DNA of 40,009 nt from Rhodospirillales bacterium (GTDB taxonomy: Bacteria; Pseudomonadota; Alphaproteobacteria; ATCC43930; CGMCC-115725), in contig JAQGID010000212.1 of the NCBI GenBank assembly GCA_028291405.1, positions 1-40,009 of the forward strand, read 5' to 3'. Positions 10,726 to 16,108 of the stretch are shown here, piece after piece. The notes below the pieces were generated by a model that did not search any database, was not told where the DNA came from, and worked only from the letters and a program-made list of their open reading frames with translations. Position 1 is the stretch's first letter, and every line of letters begins with the position of its first letter. The position numbers and the translations under genes were made by a program.

Positions 10726-10755
10726 TTTACGGAGGATCGATTTACGGAGGATCGA
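10726..10755 (+). repeat. Perfect 15-bp tandem duplication containing the ribosome binding site
   Basis: TTTACGGAGGATCGA occurs twice back to back (10726-10740 and 10741-10755). Each copy has a GGAGG Shine-Dalgarno core; the last base of the second copy is the A of the ATG of the CadD-like gene. The second copy gives correct spacing, the first acts at a distance of about 20 bases. Confidence 0.9.
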
Positions 10756-11342
10756 TGTCCGGTGTTCTGGTCCTGCTGGTGGTGACCAGCGTCGCTTTCG
10801 CTGTGACGAATGTGGACGGCCTGCTCGTGCTGCTCGCCTTCTTTTCCGACCGGCGGTACGCGACTGTCCAGGTGGTGGTTGGACAATATCTGGGAATGTC
10901 CGTCCTGATCGTCGCTGCGGTGATCGGTTCGCTTCTGTCCCTCGTCATTCCGCCTCCCCGTCTCGGACTGATCGGATTCCTTCCTCTCGCGGCGGGCGCA
11001 TGGCAGGCGTTTGTGGCGCGGGGCGCCGCCGGCACGATCGGCACCGATGAAAGCAGATATTTGAAACCGATCTCGGTTGCGCTCGTTACGGTATCAAATG
11101 GAGGCGACAATCTTGGCACTTATGTGCCGCTGTTTTCCGCGATGACCAGCGGCCAGCTGCAGATCACCATCGCTGTATTTTCGCTGTTGACGGGGCTGTG
11201 GTGTGCCGTCGCCTATTGGTTCGTTCATCACTCGAGGCTCGCTCTGCCGATCCGGCGGCATGGCGGCCAGGCGCGTCCGTGGGTGCTGATGGCGCTGGGC
11301 GTCTTCATCCTGATTCGGACCAACGCGATTGCTGAACTTTAG
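10755..11342 (+). CDS. CadD-like cadmium/cation resistance transporter
   Basis: 195 residues with about five or six membrane helices. The start SGVLVLLVVTSVAFAVTNVDGLLVLLAFFS and the later VSNGGDNLGTYVPLF are the hallmark regions of the CadD family (LysE superfamily), which exports cadmium or related cations. In typical members the first motif reads TN(I/V)DD; here the second acidic residue is Gly (TNVDG), which may alter selectivity. The ribosome binding site is tandemly duplicated. It is followed after 59 bases by a DUF5132-like gene on the same strand and is the first gene of the cation module. Substrate not proven by sequence. Confidence 0.82.
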   Translation: MSGVLVLLVVTSVAFAVTNVDGLLVLLAFFSDRRYATVQVVVGQYLGMSVLIVAAVIGSLLSLVIPPPRLGLIGFLPLAAGAWQAFVARGAAGTIGTDESRYLKPISVALVTVSNGGDNLGTYVPLFSAMTSGQLQITIAVFSLLTGLWCAVAYWFVHHSRLALPIRRHGGQARPWVLMALGVFILIRTNAIAEL

Positions 11343-11401
11343 GTCTGTCGTGAGCAGTCAGCAGCGACACCGTCCGATCCCAGCTGATAAAGGAGGGAAG
11401 A

Positions 11402-11743
11402 ATGGCGATCCTGGAGGACATGCTCGGTGGCGAGATGCTAGCCGAGGCCGGAATCGGCGCCGGCATCCTGATGCTCGCGCCGGCCTTGCTGGTCCGAGTG
11501 ACGCGACCGGCGGCCAAGGCGCTGATCAAGAGCGCCATCATCGTCTATCGCGGCGCCGCGGATGTCATCAACGAAGCCTCCGCAGCGCGCGCCGATGAGC
11601 CGCTCCCGCAAGAGGCGACCTCACGCGTCCCGGCACAGAAAGCTACGGCGGGAAACAAGCCCAGGATCCCGTCGGCTAGGCGAGGTGCAGTCGACCGCGC
11701 GGCGGCGCGCAAGCCACCCCGGCGTGCGAAGAAGAACCCCTAA
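11402..11743 (+). CDS. DUF5132-like small membrane protein 1 (basic tail)
   Basis: 113 residues, with AAAGGAGGGAAG just before the ATG. Residues 1-60 carry a glycine-rich hydrophobic segment (GIGAGILMLAPALLVRV) and the LAP-x7-RPAAKALIKSAIIVY pattern shared with two neighbours in this window. The C-terminal half is low complexity and strongly basic (SARRGAVDRAAARKPPRRAK), which may bind nucleic acid or acidic lipid. I recognise the core as DUF5132, a family without known function. Its stop overlaps the stop of the convergent HMA_2-like gene by four bases. Likely works with the neighbouring P-type ATPase; this is inference from clustering. Confidence 0.72.
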   Translation: MAILEDMLGGEMLAEAGIGAGILMLAPALLVRVTRPAAKALIKSAIIVYRGAADVINEASAARADEPLPQEATSRVPAQKATAGNKPRIPSARRGAVDRAAARKPPRRAKKNP

Positions 11744-12231
11744 TCCGACACGCGCTCTGCGATGGCGTTGCCATCGCAGCTGCGTCGCAGAAGCTCGCTT
11801 GCATACCAGCTCATCGACACCGCGATCGCCGGCTGCCGTCGATAGAGAAGCTGACCGGCCGCCATTGCGAGCAGGCCCAAGGATGCCAGCGTGCCGAGGT
11901 CAAGCTCGCCGGCGGTGACACGTTTGATGTTGCGGTCGATCGCCGCCATCTCCAGGCACAGCCGCTGCGCGACCGGCGGCGCGTGCAGGGCCAGTTCCAA
12001 AAGGTTGCCGATATCGGCGCCAAGCGCCTGCATGACGAGATCCGCGATCTCGCCCTCGTGCTGCACGAGAATACTTCCGGTGACTGGGTTCGTTGCCACA
12101 TGGCTTACCCCGTCGAGACGTTCCAGCCGGCGTTTGATATCGTCAAAAAAGTCGGAGTCTCCCCGCCGTTCCGGAACCTTGATCCGCACCCGGCCGGGAA
12201 GGCTATGCACCACGTAAGCTTTCGCTTTCAT
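11740..12231 (-). CDS. Stand-alone HMA_2-like protein with arginine-rich PGRVRIK motif
   Basis: 163 residues from the ATG at 12231; the longer frame upstream is a shadow of the preceding gene. Residues 1-80 resemble heavy-metal-associated domain 2: VVHSLPGRVRIKVPERRGD, then a helix, then LDGVSHVATNPVTGSILVQHEG, that is a ferredoxin-like beta-alpha-beta pattern. There is no CxxC, so ordinary HMA-type copper or zinc binding is unlikely. Residues about 110-130 form a hydrophobic stretch (GTLASLGLLAMAAGQLLY). The same RGRxRxxI...RG pattern opens the P-type ATPase nearby. The gene follows a DUF5132-like gene by 10 bases on the same strand, so the two are probably co-translated. Function unknown; probably a membrane-attached partner of the ATPase. 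Confidence 0.72.
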   Translation of the reverse strand: MKAKAYVVHSLPGRVRIKVPERRGDSDFFDDIKRRLERLDGVSHVATNPVTGSILVQHEGEIADLVMQALGADIGNLLELALHAPPVAQRLCLEMAAIDRNIKRVTAGELDLGTLASLGLLAMAAGQLLYRRQPAIAVSMSWYASELLRRSCDGNAIAERVSD

Positions 12232-12241
12232 GGCAAAGTCA

Positions 12242-12565
12242 TCAGTGCACGGCGGTCCGCCGTCGCGGGGCGGCGACTGCCGACTCGGACTCTGACGACG
12301 GCGGCTCATGCTCCGCCTCGGTCGGCGGCTTGGCCGCTGCCTCCGCTTGAAGCTCGGCGGTGACGTCCTCGATGGTCTCGCGCATCTCGGCTGCTGTCTC
12401 GCGTGCGCGCTGGTAGATCGCCAATCCGGCTTTAATCGCGGTCTTGGTCGCCGGCCGCGCGAAGCGTGCGAGCGCCGGCGTGACGATCGGAGCCAAGAAT
12501 ACGCCGGCTGCCCCGCCCACAAGCATCGCCGCGAATGTGCCCTTCCATTTTGTCTCTTCCGCCAT
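12242..12565 (-). CDS. DUF5132-like small membrane protein 2 (acidic tail)
   Basis: 107 residues from the ATG at 12565, which has GGAGC eight bases upstream; an earlier in-frame start at 12631 lacks support. Core: hydrophobic FAAMLVGGAAGVFLAPIVTPAL with a GxxxG-type packing motif, followed by ARFARPATKTAIKAGLAIYQ, matching the other two copies. An amphipathic helix (ETAAEMRETIEDVTAELQAE) and an acidic, Pro/Ser-rich tail follow. One membrane pass or a membrane-inserted hairpin is likely. It is divergent from the third copy and heads a two-gene unit with the HMA_2-like gene. Confidence 0.72.
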   Translation of the reverse strand: MAEETKWKGTFAAMLVGGAAGVFLAPIVTPALARFARPATKTAIKAGLAIYQRARETAAEMRETIEDVTAELQAEAAAKPPTEAEHEPPSSESESAVAAPRRRTAVH

Positions 12566-12777
12566 GGCCTGCTCCAGGTCACATCGCAGTACGGGATTCA
12601 TTAGAACACTGCTGATGCCCGATAGGTCCATGCCCCTTTTGGTGCGGAGCGCGCTTTCCCAACGCGCGCATGCTCTACCGCGGCGCTCGGTTCGAACCGT
12701 GGGGCATCGCTAGTGTTACAGTTTTTTAACAGCCGCAAGAACGAGGCTTCCGCAATGGCGATCTAGAGGAATTCACG
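12566..12777. promoter_or_regulatory. Divergent promoter region of the cation module
   Basis: These 212 bases separate the minus-strand DUF5132/HMA_2 pair from the plus-strand DUF5132/ATPase pair and must contain both promoters. A short AT-rich patch (12714-12731) contains TGTTA-N8-TAACA, a weak dyad. CGAAC-N16-TGTT at 12693-12717 is a poor fit to the alphaproteobacterial EcfG stress promoter. No promoter can be assigned firmly. Confidence 0.35.
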
Positions 12778-13083
12778 ATGGCTATTTTAGAGAATGCGCT
12801 TGAAGGACTTGCTGAAGGCGGTGTCGCGACGGGGCTAGCGGTCGGCGTCGGTGTGCTTCTGCTCGCGCCTGGCATCCTCCCCGCGGTTGGCCGTGCGTTG
12901 CGTCCGGTCGCGGTCGGCGCGATCAAGACCGGTATGCAGGTGTACGAGCAAGTCGCCTCCACGGTGCGTGAAACGGCTGAGGATCTCGTTGCTGAGGCAC
13001 GAGCCGAGCTCGATGCGGAGCATGGTGGCGCGGAAGCCGAGCCGAGACGCCGCCGGACGCGGCTCGCGGAGCCGGCGACCTGA
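12778..13083 (+). CDS. DUF5132-like small membrane protein 3
   Basis: 101 residues; AGAGGAA lies nine bases before the ATG. The core has a glycine-rich hydrophobic helix (GGVATGLAVGVGVLLLAPGI, with several GxxxG spacings) followed by LPAVGRALRPVAVGAIKTG and an amphipathic helix (VRETAEDLVAEARAELDAE), then a short Arg-rich tail. It starts MAILE like copy 1 and shares the LAP...RP...IK...Y spine with both other copies. It precedes the P-type ATPase by 58 bases on the same strand, so co-expression is likely. Glycine-zipper helices of this kind can oligomerise in membranes; that role is inference. Confidence 0.74.
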   Translation: MAILENALEGLAEGGVATGLAVGVGVLLLAPGILPAVGRALRPVAVGAIKTGMQVYEQVASTVRETAEDLVAEARAELDAEHGGAEAEPRRRRTRLAEPAT

Positions 13084-13141
13084 GGCGCGGCGGGTCCGCG
13101 TCGTCTGAGGCTTCGTACCGCCGCGAGCGCTGTTCGACGTC

Positions 13142-16108
13142 GTGAGCATGCCCGCTGTGCAAGCGAGCCCAATCGCGCCGGTGCATACAGCCGTGAGAGG
13201 TCGAGCTCGTCTTCATATTGGCCGCCTCCGCGGTAACGAGGTTCTCAGCCGCGCCCTCGAGCATGCGCTGTCCGGCGCGGCGATCGAAAGCGCGTCGGCG
13301 AGCAGCCTAACCGGAAATTTGCTCGTGCGGTTCGGCAAGGACGTCTCCCTCGCCGAGGTCACTGCACGCATCGAGCAGATCTTAGCGGACCTCGTCCGTG
13401 ACCCGCAGGATTCCGCGTACCCCGCCGAGGCCGCCTCGTATGGTTGGCACGGCGCGTTCCCGAAGGATGTCCTGCGGGAGCTGCGAACCACGCGCTCGGG
13501 GCTCGAGGAGGCTGTTGCGGATCGGCGGCTCAAGCAATATGGCAGCAACGTGCTGCCCGCGCTGGCGTCGGCATCGCGGCTGGGGATGCTGATCGAGCAG
13601 TTTCAGAGTCTGCCCGTAATCCTGCTGGCCGGCGCGGCGGCGCTTTCGGTCGCCACGGGCGGCTTAGCCGACGCGGTGGTGATCCTCAGCGTCGTCGGTC
13701 TCAACGCCGCCATCGGATTTGCCACGGAAAGCCGGACCAGCCGTATCATCGGCGCGCTTTCGTTGCCGCTCCAGGCCAGCGTTCCGGTTCATCGCGATGG
13801 AGCGACGCGACCCGTCCCCACCGAAGCCGTCGTGCCGGGCGACATCATGGTATTGCAGCCGGGCATCATCATCGGCGCAGATGGGCGCGTGATCGCCGCG
13901 GATGGCTTGACGGCGGATGAATCCATGCTGACGGGCGAAAGCCTGCCGGTGCCTAAAAGCGAGACTCCCGTCGCGCTCGACCGTCCCCTCGCTGAGCGTA
14001 CCAGCATGGTTTATCGCAGCAGCGCGGTGGTCGGCGGCAGTGGCCTTGCCGTGGCGGTAGCAACCGGTCCGCGCACCGAGGTGGGCCATATCCAGGCGCT
14101 GGTCGGCGCGACGGGCACGCCGGAGACCCCGATGCAGCGGCAGCTCGACGTACTTGGCGGTCAGCTCGTCCTGCTCTCCTGCGGGATCTGCGGCGTCGTC
14201 TTTCTCATCGGCTTGCTGCGTGGGCATGCTTTTCTGCAGATTCTCAAATCCTCGATCGCCCTTGCCGTGGCCGCCATCCCGGAAGGACTTCCCACTGTTG
14301 GCACGACCGCGCTCGCGCTCGGCATCGAGGAGATGCGGCGGCGACAGGTCCTGGTGCGGCGCTTGCACGCGGTCGAAACCCTCGCGGCGGTCGACGTGAT
14401 CGCCTTCGACAAGACGGGTACGCTGACGGAAAATCGTATGTCGGCGACGGCCGTCGCCTGCGGAGGAGAGCATTTCGCCGTCGCCGACGGCATGCTCCGC
14501 GATGACGGCCGGCCGTTGTTGGCGGCAGCCCCGGGATCGACATTGGCGCGGCTCGTCCAGGTCGCCGTTCTCTGCAATGAGGCGACCTTGCACCTGGCGC
14601 CGGAGGGCGTCCGAATCACCGGTAGTCCCACCGAGGCGGCGCTGCTGCGCCTGGCGCTCGATCTCGGAACCGACGTCGTCGAACTCCGCCGGCGCTTTCC
14701 CGTGCAGGCGATCGAGTACCGGGCAGAGGCGCGTCAGTACATGGTGAGCGTTCACCCGGCGTCCCGCGGCAGATTGCTGATGAGCAAGGGCAATCCCGAG
14801 CAGGTGCTGGCCCGCTGTACATGGCAATCGCGCGGTCGGCGCCGGATGCCGCTCAATGCGACGGCACGGGCCGCCATTCTCGGCGACAACCGAAAGATGG
14901 CGGCCGACGGGTTGCGCGTCCTTGGTCTTGCCTATGCCGAGCCGACCGCCCCCCGGCGCGTGGACGGCCCGGCGACCGAGCGGCTGGACGGGGAGGGTCT
15001 CGTCTGGCTCGGGCTCGTCGGTCTGTCCGATCCCGCGCGACGCGGCGCCGGGGATCTGCTCGCCCGCTTCGATCGCGCGGGCATCCGCGTCATCATGATC
15101 ACCGGCGACCAGGCGCCGACCGCGCGGGCGGTGGCGGAGAGCGTGAAGCTCGGCAACGGCGCACCGCTCGGCGTGCTCGAGGCAAGCGAGCTTCATGGCA
15201 AGGACGACGCCGCGGTGGACGAGATCCTGCGCCATACGCGCATTTTCGCGCGTGCCACGCCCGCCGATAAGCTGCGGATCGTCCAGGCGCTTCAGCGTTC
15301 GGGCAAGATCGTCGCGGTGACCGGCGACGGCATCAACGACAGCCCGGCATTGCGCGCCGCCAATCTCGGCATCGTCATGGGACTGAGCGGCACAGACGCC
15401 GCGCGCGAGGTCGCCGATGTCGTGCTGGCGAGCGACGATCTCATGACGTTGACCACGGCGCTGGCACATGGGCGGACCACCTACGGCAACATTCGCAAGT
15501 CGATCCACTTTCTGCTCGCGACGAACCTCAGCGAGATCCTTGTCGTGCTCATGACGACGACGCTGGGCTTCGGCGCAACGCTGACGCCGATGCAGCTCCT
15601 GTGGATCAACCTTCTATCGGACGTGCTGCCCGCGCTCGGCCTTGCCCTCGAACCGGCGGAGAGCGGCGTCCTCGAACAGAAGCCCCGTGCCCCCGACGAA
15701 CCGATGCTGAGCCGGCAGGACATGGCGGTGCTCGCCCGCGAAGGCACGATGATTGCCGCGGGCGCGCTTGGTGCCTATGGCTTGGGCATGGCGCGTCAAG
15801 GCGAGGCCGCACGCGCCGGCACTATGTCTTTCACCAGCCTCGTCGGCGGGCAGCTCCTTCATGCGCTGACCTCGCGCTCTGCACATGCCGGATTGTTCGG
15901 AGCCGAGCCTTTGCCGGCGAACCGGCCGCTTGCGGCCGCGCTGCTCGGCTCCGCAGGACTTCAAGTGGCCTTGCTGGTCGTTCCCGCGCTGCGCCGGTTC
16001 ATGGGGCTCGCGCCGCTCGATGCCGGCGATGCGCTGATCAGCCTCGCCGGTGCGGTCCTGCCCTATATCGCGAACGAGGCCGCGAAGACGGCGCTGCCGC
16101 GGCGCTGA
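13142..16108 (+). CDS. Cation-transporting P-type ATPase with HMA_2-like N-terminus
   Basis: 988 residues from GTG 13142; ATG 13148 is an equally possible start, and neither has a strong ribosome binding site. Residues 14-85 are HMA_2-like (RGRARLHIGRLRGN) without CxxC. Then come a cation-ATPase N-terminal region (about 105-150), actuator motif TGES (264-267), M4 PEGLP (380-384), phosphorylation motif DKTGTLT (Asp423), and hinge motifs ITGD and TGDGINDSPAL. M5 has N795-L-S-E798 and M6 has N823-L-L-S826-D827. Compared with SERCA (Glu309, Asn768, Glu771, Asn796, Thr799, Asp800) these reproduce the high-affinity Ca/Mn site, with Ser for Thr. It is thus P2-like, not a CPx heavy-metal pump. It lies in the inner membrane and pumps a cation by ATP; Ca or Mn is my inference. 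Probable mate of the adjacent DUF5132 gene. Confidence 0.9.
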   Translation: MSMPAVQASPIAPVHTAVRGRARLHIGRLRGNEVLSRALEHALSGAAIESASASSLTGNLLVRFGKDVSLAEVTARIEQILADLVRDPQDSAYPAEAASYGWHGAFPKDVLRELRTTRSGLEEAVADRRLKQYGSNVLPALASASRLGMLIEQFQSLPVILLAGAAALSVATGGLADAVVILSVVGLNAAIGFATESRTSRIIGALSLPLQASVPVHRDGATRPVPTEAVVPGDIMVLQPGIIIGADGRVIAADGLTADESMLTGESLPVPKSETPVALDRPLAERTSMVYRSSAVVGGSGLAVAVATGPRTEVGHIQALVGATGTPETPMQRQLDVLGGQLVLLSCGICGVVFLIGLLRGHAFLQILKSSIALAVAAIPEGLPTVGTTALALGIEEMRRRQVLVRRLHAVETLAAVDVIAFDKTGTLTENRMSATAVACGGEHFAVADGMLRDDGRPLLAAAPGSTLARLVQVAVLCNEATLHLAPEGVRITGSPTEAALLRLALDLGTDVVELRRRFPVQAIEYRAEARQYMVSVHPASRGRLLMSKGNPEQVLARCTWQSRGRRRMPLNATARAAILGDNRKMAADGLRVLGLAYAEPTAPRRVDGPATERLDGEGLVWLGLVGLSDPARRGAGDLLARFDRAGIRVIMITGDQAPTARAVAESVKLGNGAPLGVLEASELHGKDDAAVDEILRHTRIFARATPADKLRIVQALQRSGKIVAVTGDGINDSPALRAANLGIVMGLSGTDAAREVADVVLASDDLMTLTTALAHGRTTYGNIRKSIHFLLATNLSEILVVLMTTTLGFGATLTPMQLLWINLLSDVLPALGLALEPAESGVLEQKPRAPDEPMLSRQDMAVLAREGTMIAAGALGAYGLGMARQGEAARAGTMSFTSLVGGQLLHALTSRSAHAGLFGAEPLPANRPLAAALLGSAGLQVALLVVPALRRFMGLAPLDAGDALISLAGAVLPYIANEAAKTALPRR

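Follow-up and report, generated by a model that had tools for sequence, protein, structure and literature searches.

What would a P2A pump, a kind of cation ATPase that in bacteria is usually regarded as a single polypeptide, do with a set of small membrane proteins of its own? The question is raised by six genes at positions 10755-16108 of a 40,009-nucleotide stretch of DNA from a Rhodospirillales bacterium (GenBank assembly GCA_028291405.1, contig JAQGID010000212.1), referred to throughout as the window, in which an initial sequence-only reading saw a CadD-like transporter, three DUF5132-like proteins (here D1, D2 and D3), an HMA_2-like protein and a P-type ATPase, and was reminded of ferrosome (fez) clusters. 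All six were confirmed as such by Pfam and phmmer. The recurrence of the pump and its small membrane neighbours in distant bacteria suggests an unstudied multi-part machine for ion export or storage, and our favoured picture, to which we give about an even chance, is a multi-component platform exporting Ca2+ or Mn2+, built on a P2A pump and resembling the effluxosomes of PacL proteins.

Conservation of the gene set

Judged by its sequence, the ATPase is a P2A pump and not a P1B-6 pump as in ferrosomes, which bears out, and narrows, its earlier description as P2-like. It has Cation_ATPase_N/C and E1-E2 domains (Pfam) and a PEGLP motif in M4, its best NCBIfam model is the PMR1-type Ca one (531 bits, below the model cut-off of 798 bits), and its nearest solved structures are SPCA1 and Listeria LMCA1 (E about 5e-124 to 1e-123). 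The likeness to these structures starts at residue 110-120 and runs to about 955-967, and the N-terminus gives a weak match to HMA_2 (E=0.0024, below the cut-off), which the sequence-only reading had not mentioned.

How often this pump has the same neighbours was surveyed in one genome per species (about 85,000 species) with the C-terminus of the ATPase as the only query, so that the choice of loci, the best 80 of at least 549 confirmed matches, was independent of what lies around them. Searched with iterated profiles made for this analysis, 43 of the 80 loci showed a DUF5132 neighbour and 44 an HMA_2 neighbour, both being present in 40/80 and neither in 33/80 (31/56 and 22/56, respectively, for loci whose flanks measure 2.5 kb or more on each side). 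DUF5132 open reading frames (ORFs) lie at most 3.5 kb from the pump in 47/50 cases. Since a sizeable share of the loci shows neither, the pump need not have the accessory genes beside it. Around eight ordinary P2A ATPases, taken as controls from 30 listed plasmid matches, neither DUF5132 nor HMA_2 was detected in 6-kb flanks (0/8 for either, E<0.01). The neighbourhood search for DUF5132, HMA_2 and P-type ATPase genes that the sequence-only reading had proposed has thus found the set conserved, and since the module recurs in other genomes, that reading does not fall for want of conservation.

The pumps themselves form a family of their own. A tree was made of 88 ATPases, the eight controls and 80 of the 84 family members (four under 840 residues being omitted), by a quick method that warns of long branches; full-length rows had their first 100 residues removed. 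In it the family separates from the controls as one clade with a support of 100. It spans at least five phyla, its named members falling in Pseudomonadota, Cyanobacteriota, Nitrospirota, Thermodesulfobacteriota and Methylomirabilota. An N-terminal HMA_2 match (E<=0.01) is found on 73 of the 80 survey ATPases, the other seven being frames of at most 903 residues, and 75 of the 77 family ATPases of at least 960 residues have GRxR or ARxR in their first 110 residues, where CxxC occurs in one. Ca2+ or Mn2+ is the likely ion because the positions aligned with the Ca2+-site residues of SERCA, which we take to be E309, N768, E771, N796 and D800, are kept almost throughout the family (82/82, 84/84, 84/84, 84/84 and 83/84, respectively). 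The eight controls keep four of these five residues in 8/8 and the M6 Asp in 5/8. A Gln/His motif in M8 was considered as a mark of new ion specificity and dropped, as the ordinary P2A controls have Q (5/8) or H (3/8) there.

Closer to the window, the module is scarce and cohesive. Among 240 genomes of the class, DUF5132 passes its cut-off in three (the window's own, G131 and G028), all of which have HMA_2 adjacent and an ATPase of the same family nearby, and these three belong to the nine genomes whose HMA_2 match reaches E<=0.01 (p about 4e-5, hypergeometric). Across the phylum (398 genomes), only two, the window's included, have DUF5132 above the cut-off, and 11 have HMA_2 at E<=0.001, which makes the module a rare one. 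In a set of 61 relatives, DUF5132 is found in seven, with HMA_2 adjacent in 7/7 (the window's locus being counted by hand). The order D-D-D-HMA_2-ATPase, in one direction, at locus L143 is the window's set minus CadD; L142 has D-D-HMA_2-ATPase, ending at a contig edge, and L145 has the ATPase, a MetK-like frame (by its GHPDK motif only), then D-HMA_2. Two contigs, L141 and L144, end too early for the locus to be judged, L141 before any ATPase comes into view. L141, from the only other same-genus genome searched, has homologues of HMA_2, D2 and D3 with ratios of nonsynonymous to synonymous substitution (dN/dS) of 0.32, 0.30 and 0.21, respectively, which argues that these three are real genes; the best match of D1 there is a paralogue. 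The CadD-like gene, which the sequence-only reading had counted in, probably stands outside this set: no homologue was found in the DNA examined around the 83 other ATPase loci or at nine further loci (L141-L149, the same-genus locus among them).

Accessory proteins and the pumps that they accompany

The genes are arranged in three blocks, and not in the two divergent sets described at first: CadD and D1 on the forward strand, D2 and HMA_2 on the reverse strand, D3 and the ATPase on the forward strand again. D1 and HMA_2 converge, with overlapping stop codons; D2 lies directly upstream of HMA_2 (10-nt gap) and is divergent from D3 (146 nt between them), and D3 lies directly upstream of the ATPase gene. 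For HMA_2, the ATG at 12231 is a better start than that of the 280-residue frame in which it lies.

D2 and D3 pass the curated cut-off of PF17195 (DUF5132) whereas D1, which has no Pfam match, was recognised through phmmer hits to DUF5132-type proteins elsewhere (2.9e-8 and 1.4e-7 in L013, 1.3e-5 in L008, before any iteration). D1 shares the start MAILE with D3, is preceded by a Shine-Dalgarno-like AGGAGG and ends in a basic tail. All three have GxxxG within their transmembrane (TM)-like segment, and 38/43 DUF5132-type ORFs have it somewhere in their sequence. The D3 model consists mostly of a single 68-residue helix (predicted local distance difference test score (pLDDT) 81.6, predicted template modelling score 0.43). 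DUF5132 is named in no paper of the literature searched, a scope outside which most subscription papers lie.

The HMA_2 protein is of the HMA_2 type by its Pfam match over the cut-off, its basic residues and its lack of CxxC. Its AlphaFold2 model shows strands 6-11 and 14-18, helix 26-37, strands 42-48 and 53-58 and helix 62-71, followed by further helices, the long ones being 87-105, 112-129 and 134-153; the protein is thus a ferredoxin-like domain bearing Arg14-x-Arg16, followed by a helical C-terminal half that is probably membrane-bound. Both arginines are invariant in 37/37 aligned rows, and CxxC occurs in 0/37. The fold alone proves little since many ferredoxin-like folds match: Foldseek retrieved HMA-like chains among them (best E=4.2e-3), and the top ranks went to chains of archaeal and eukaryotic RNA polymerase subunits. 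Among the closest known systems are CoBaHMA domains and calcyanin, in which an HMA-like fold reportedly has conserved basic residues where cysteines would be and is associated with glycine zippers and transport ATPases. The window's protein shares the HMA-like fold, the conserved basic residues and the absence of cysteine pairs, and we class its domain as CoBaHMA-type. A literature search for HMA domains with glycine zippers returned nothing relevant.

The two accessory proteins are closely tied to each other. HMA_2 directly follows DUF5132 in 22 of the 43 DUF5132 loci and is fused to it in 12 (all cyanobacterial by title, and counted within the 40 loci with both genes), the remaining nine showing no adjacent HMA_2 under the gap rule of the script. 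These fusions, in most cases just upstream of the ATPase, lack the ferredoxin-like half of HMA_2 and join DUF5132 to the membrane half alone: in the three scanned with Pfam, DUF5132 passes its cut-off, and the weak HMA_2 match behind it, which does not, covers profile positions 88-152 of 154. A heterocystous Nostoc/Anabaena has the order fusion-ATPase-MetK, and a Mesorhizobium, with separate genes, D-D-ATPase-HMA. This indicates that DUF5132 is accompanied by the membrane half of HMA_2, the ferredoxin-like half being found on the pump as well.

To our reading of the sequences, this one accessory kit accompanies two classes of pump, P2A and P1B-6-like. In the window's own family, L146 has D, HMA_2 and a 730-residue ATPase with an N-terminal HMA_2 match, whose M4 and terminal motifs resemble, as we read them, those of P1B-6 rather than P2A pumps. 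In L058 (Hydrococcus), a 748-residue P1B-6-like ATPase, also with an N-terminal HMA_2 match, lies 2.1 kb from the P2A pump, and DUF5132 and HMA_2 genes lie beyond it. These are the only two P1B-6-like pumps among the DUF5132 loci examined, and HMA_2 proteins are also found with P1B-6-like pumps in L010 and L011. The resemblance to fez clusters noted at the outset is partly upheld: it is more than an analogy, since in the window's own family a P1B-6-like pump stands next to DUF5132 and HMA_2 genes, but the window's pump is P2A.

A proposed export platform and its rivals

How could these parts work together? In the platform that we favour, the ATPase would move a divalent cation, with Ca2+ and Mn2+ as the likeliest candidates, from the cytoplasm across the inner membrane. 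One-helix scaffolds with a glycine-rich membrane segment would be supplied by the DUF5132 proteins (D2 and D3 with a long Glu/Ala-rich cytoplasmic helix), whose task, like that of PacL proteins on P1B pumps, would be to gather the pump into clusters or to stabilise it. HMA_2 would be an adaptor, its membrane half pairing with DUF5132, and the ATPase would carry its own copy of the ferredoxin-like domain. The invariant arginines and the absence of metal-binding cysteine pairs make metal a less likely ligand of this adaptor than the head groups of anionic lipids or an acidic partner.

The precedent is the PacL (DUF1490)/Ctp effluxosome of Mycobacterium tuberculosis. Two papers (PMC9374683, PMC13043812) describe PacL1 as having a TM domain, a GXXG-type membrane motif (G17xxG20), Glu/Ala repeats and a metal-binding tail, report that it clusters with and stabilises the P-ATPase CtpC, and place PacL-like DUF6110 proteins with P1B-6 ATPases. 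The window's proteins share with PacL the small one-helix design, the glycine motif, the adjacent pump gene, the Glu/Ala-rich cytoplasmic part (D1 having its basic tail instead) and the presence of several paralogues per genome. They differ in being neither DUF1490 nor DUF6110, in lacking the metal-binding C-terminal motif, in serving a P2A and not a P1B pump, and in the addition of HMA_2 proteins. The P2A Ca2+-ATPases SPCA/PMR1 and Listeria LMCA1 resemble the window's ATPase in P2A core and ion-site residues, and differ from it in having neither the HMA_2-like N-terminal domain nor the conserved accessory genes.

Several observations weigh against the platform. Homology between DUF5132 and DUF1490 could not be established, a single member of 37 (D2) matching the DUF1490 profile, and this below the cut-off (E=0.061, 13.8 bits vs 28.4), and the PacL-type metal-binding motif, sought as DxH or HxH among the 30 C-terminal residues, occurs in 0/43 DUF5132-type ORFs. 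The window's HMA_2 protein passes no simple TM threshold, the substrate of the pump is a prediction from aligned residues, and both accessory genes are missing from the DNA examined at the 33 survey loci noted above (22 of them with flanks of at least 2.5 kb). The platform also leaves unexplained the commonest partner of the pump elsewhere, a MetK homologue described below.

The main rival is a storage compartment, a possible but conjectural reading that we consider rather improbable, in which the glycine-zipper and HMA_2 proteins would shape a ferrosome-like vesicle or membrane patch that the P2A pump fills with Ca2+ or Mn2+, either to store the ion or to detoxify it. The same accessory pair adjoins P1B-6-like ATPases in L146 and L058, and ferrosomes share with the window the combination of a membrane protein with a P-type ATPase; a Gly/Ala-rich repetitive helical protein found in 15 related loci, though not in the window, could be a further part. 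The window's pump, however, is P2A, unlike FezB, which we take to be P1B-6. Ferrosomes require the membrane protein FezA and the transporter FezB, according to PMC12574912, and FezC is DUF4405-related according to PMC10979944. No known compartment marker was seen among the window's genes, in which no search was aimed at FezC-type cytochromes, and PacL-type proteins do a similar job without any compartment; efflux platforms of that type (PMC9374683, PMC13043812) account for the small membrane proteins no less well than ferrosomes do. In papers on intracellular carbonates (PMC11773610, PMC12836880), P-type Ca2+ transporters were suggested for Achromatium and none was identified in carbonate-forming magnetotactic genomes; no link could be made from these to the window's ATPase family.

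The platform might also be right and its ion wrong, if a transition metal (Mn2+, Fe2+ or Cd2+) were exported for detoxification and the role were not calcium handling. In its favour, Mn2+ is among the ions carried by SPCA-type P2A pumps, the window has a CadD-like gene next to the others, and a CorA-like gene (identified by reading) recurs in eight loci. CadD, however, is at no other locus examined, and the residues aligned with a canonical Ca2+ site are kept almost throughout the family (the controls keep four of the five in 8/8 and the M6 Asp in 5/8); we hold this variant to be unlikely. Least credible, and in our view very improbable, is an ordinary lone P2A ATPase beside unrelated small membrane genes. 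The loci devoid of both accessory genes speak for it, but chance would hardly produce both genes in half of the survey loci and neither at any control, let alone the fusion, the tandem order of L143 and the succession of D and HMA_2 in 22 further loci.

If the export platform were real, a widespread family of P2A pumps would have scaffold and adaptor genes of its own, in common with P1B-6-like pumps, which would (i) join the fields of ferrosomes and PacL effluxosomes, (ii) make the organisation of bacterial calcium/manganese transport in platforms or organelles testable and (iii) give DUF5132 its first functional context.

MetK and other recurrent neighbours

The commonest neighbour of the pump is a homologue of MetK (S-adenosylmethionine synthetase), encoded directly 3' of the ATPase on the same strand with a median gap of 9 bp, in 68/84 loci (66 of 80, plus L008 and L009). 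The three members scanned with the metK equivalog model of NCBIfam all pass it (two members were also scanned with Pfam), and at least one further metK is present in all 12 MetK-bearing genomes tested. When 60 paralogues (eight of the 68 being dropped by length) were compared with eight canonical copies (from 17 loci), 65 columns were common to both, including GHPD, TGRK and SGK. The Asp aligned with what we take to be D238 of E. coli MetK is His in at least 93% of the paralogues, and a Glu near the presumed E55 is Arg in 49/60; both are likely positions of the methionine pocket, and a changed amino-acid substrate is plausible. The window's pump has no metK gene beside it; two metK-like genes lie on other contigs of its genome (G000:C113:11408-12547 and G000:C286:14350-15489, 38-39% identity). 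A literature search for MetK with P-type ATPases returned nothing relevant, and this unexplained link, found in most relatives examined, is directly testable. In the broadest and still doubtful view, bacteria of at least five phyla might assemble a membrane machine or compartment for handling cations from interchangeable parts. DUF5132 and HMA_2, joined in some by a coat protein of Gly/Ala repeats, would be fitted either to a P1B-6-like pump for iron, as in ferrosomes, or to a P2A pump for Ca2+/Mn2+; at most P2A loci examined, though not at the window's, the kit would be linked to a MetK paralogue whose methionine pocket is altered.

Table 1. Coordinates of the window's genes and of the recurrent features at related loci.
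Feature	Position	Strand	Remarks
CadD-like transporter (Cad family, 195 aa)	10755..11342	+	PF03596 E=2.4e-16; probably outside conserved module
D1, DUF5132-type small membrane protein, 113 aa	11402..11743	+	phmmer matches to L013, L008; TM-like 12-35
HMA_2 protein, 163 aa	11740..12231	-	PF19991 E=1.5e-15; AlphaFold2 pLDDT 87
D2, DUF5132 small membrane protein, 129 aa	12242..12631	-	PF17195 E=1.5e-9; TM-like 31-56
D3, DUF5132 small membrane protein, 101 aa	12778..13083	+	PF17195 E=5.8e-7; TM-like 10-42
P2A-type cation ATPase, 988 aa, PMR1/SPCA-like	13142..16108	+	Pfam, NCBIfam, nearest PDB chains
ATPase N-terminal HMA_2-like domain (GRxR motif)	13172..13342	+	PF19991, 21 bits, below cut-off
DUF5132-HMA_2 fusions	L033, L036, L037, L046, L050, L063, L072, L079, L081, L089, L093, L094		
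MetK paralogues (examples)	L045:10639-11838; L009:11523-12710		
Gly/Ala repeat protein (examples)	L018:6852-7532; L024:6797-7489; L008:13004-13813		12 more loci

The Gly/Ala-rich protein (226-269 residues) is encoded upstream on the ATPase strand in 14 of its 15 loci and resembles a membrane-coating protein; the two members scanned have no Pfam match over the cut-off. Genes recognised by eye as those of a pst-like ABC transporter lie near the module in some Nitrospirota loci (L018:1087-3628, L024:1258-3799), and a phosphate-transport neighbourhood was rejected as a partner because it is not general. Clusters of response regulators and ABC ATPases among the neighbours were too mixed to use. Four further neighbour clusters, each with one member scanned, are a DUF445-type membrane protein gene 3' of the ATPase in eight alphaproteobacterial loci (e.g. 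L070:11306-12598), Zn_peptidase_2 (L088:2675-3553) at seven loci and EcsC (L086:4715-5569) at nine, both largely gammaproteobacterial, and PHA_gran_rgn (L057:14729-15028) at six.

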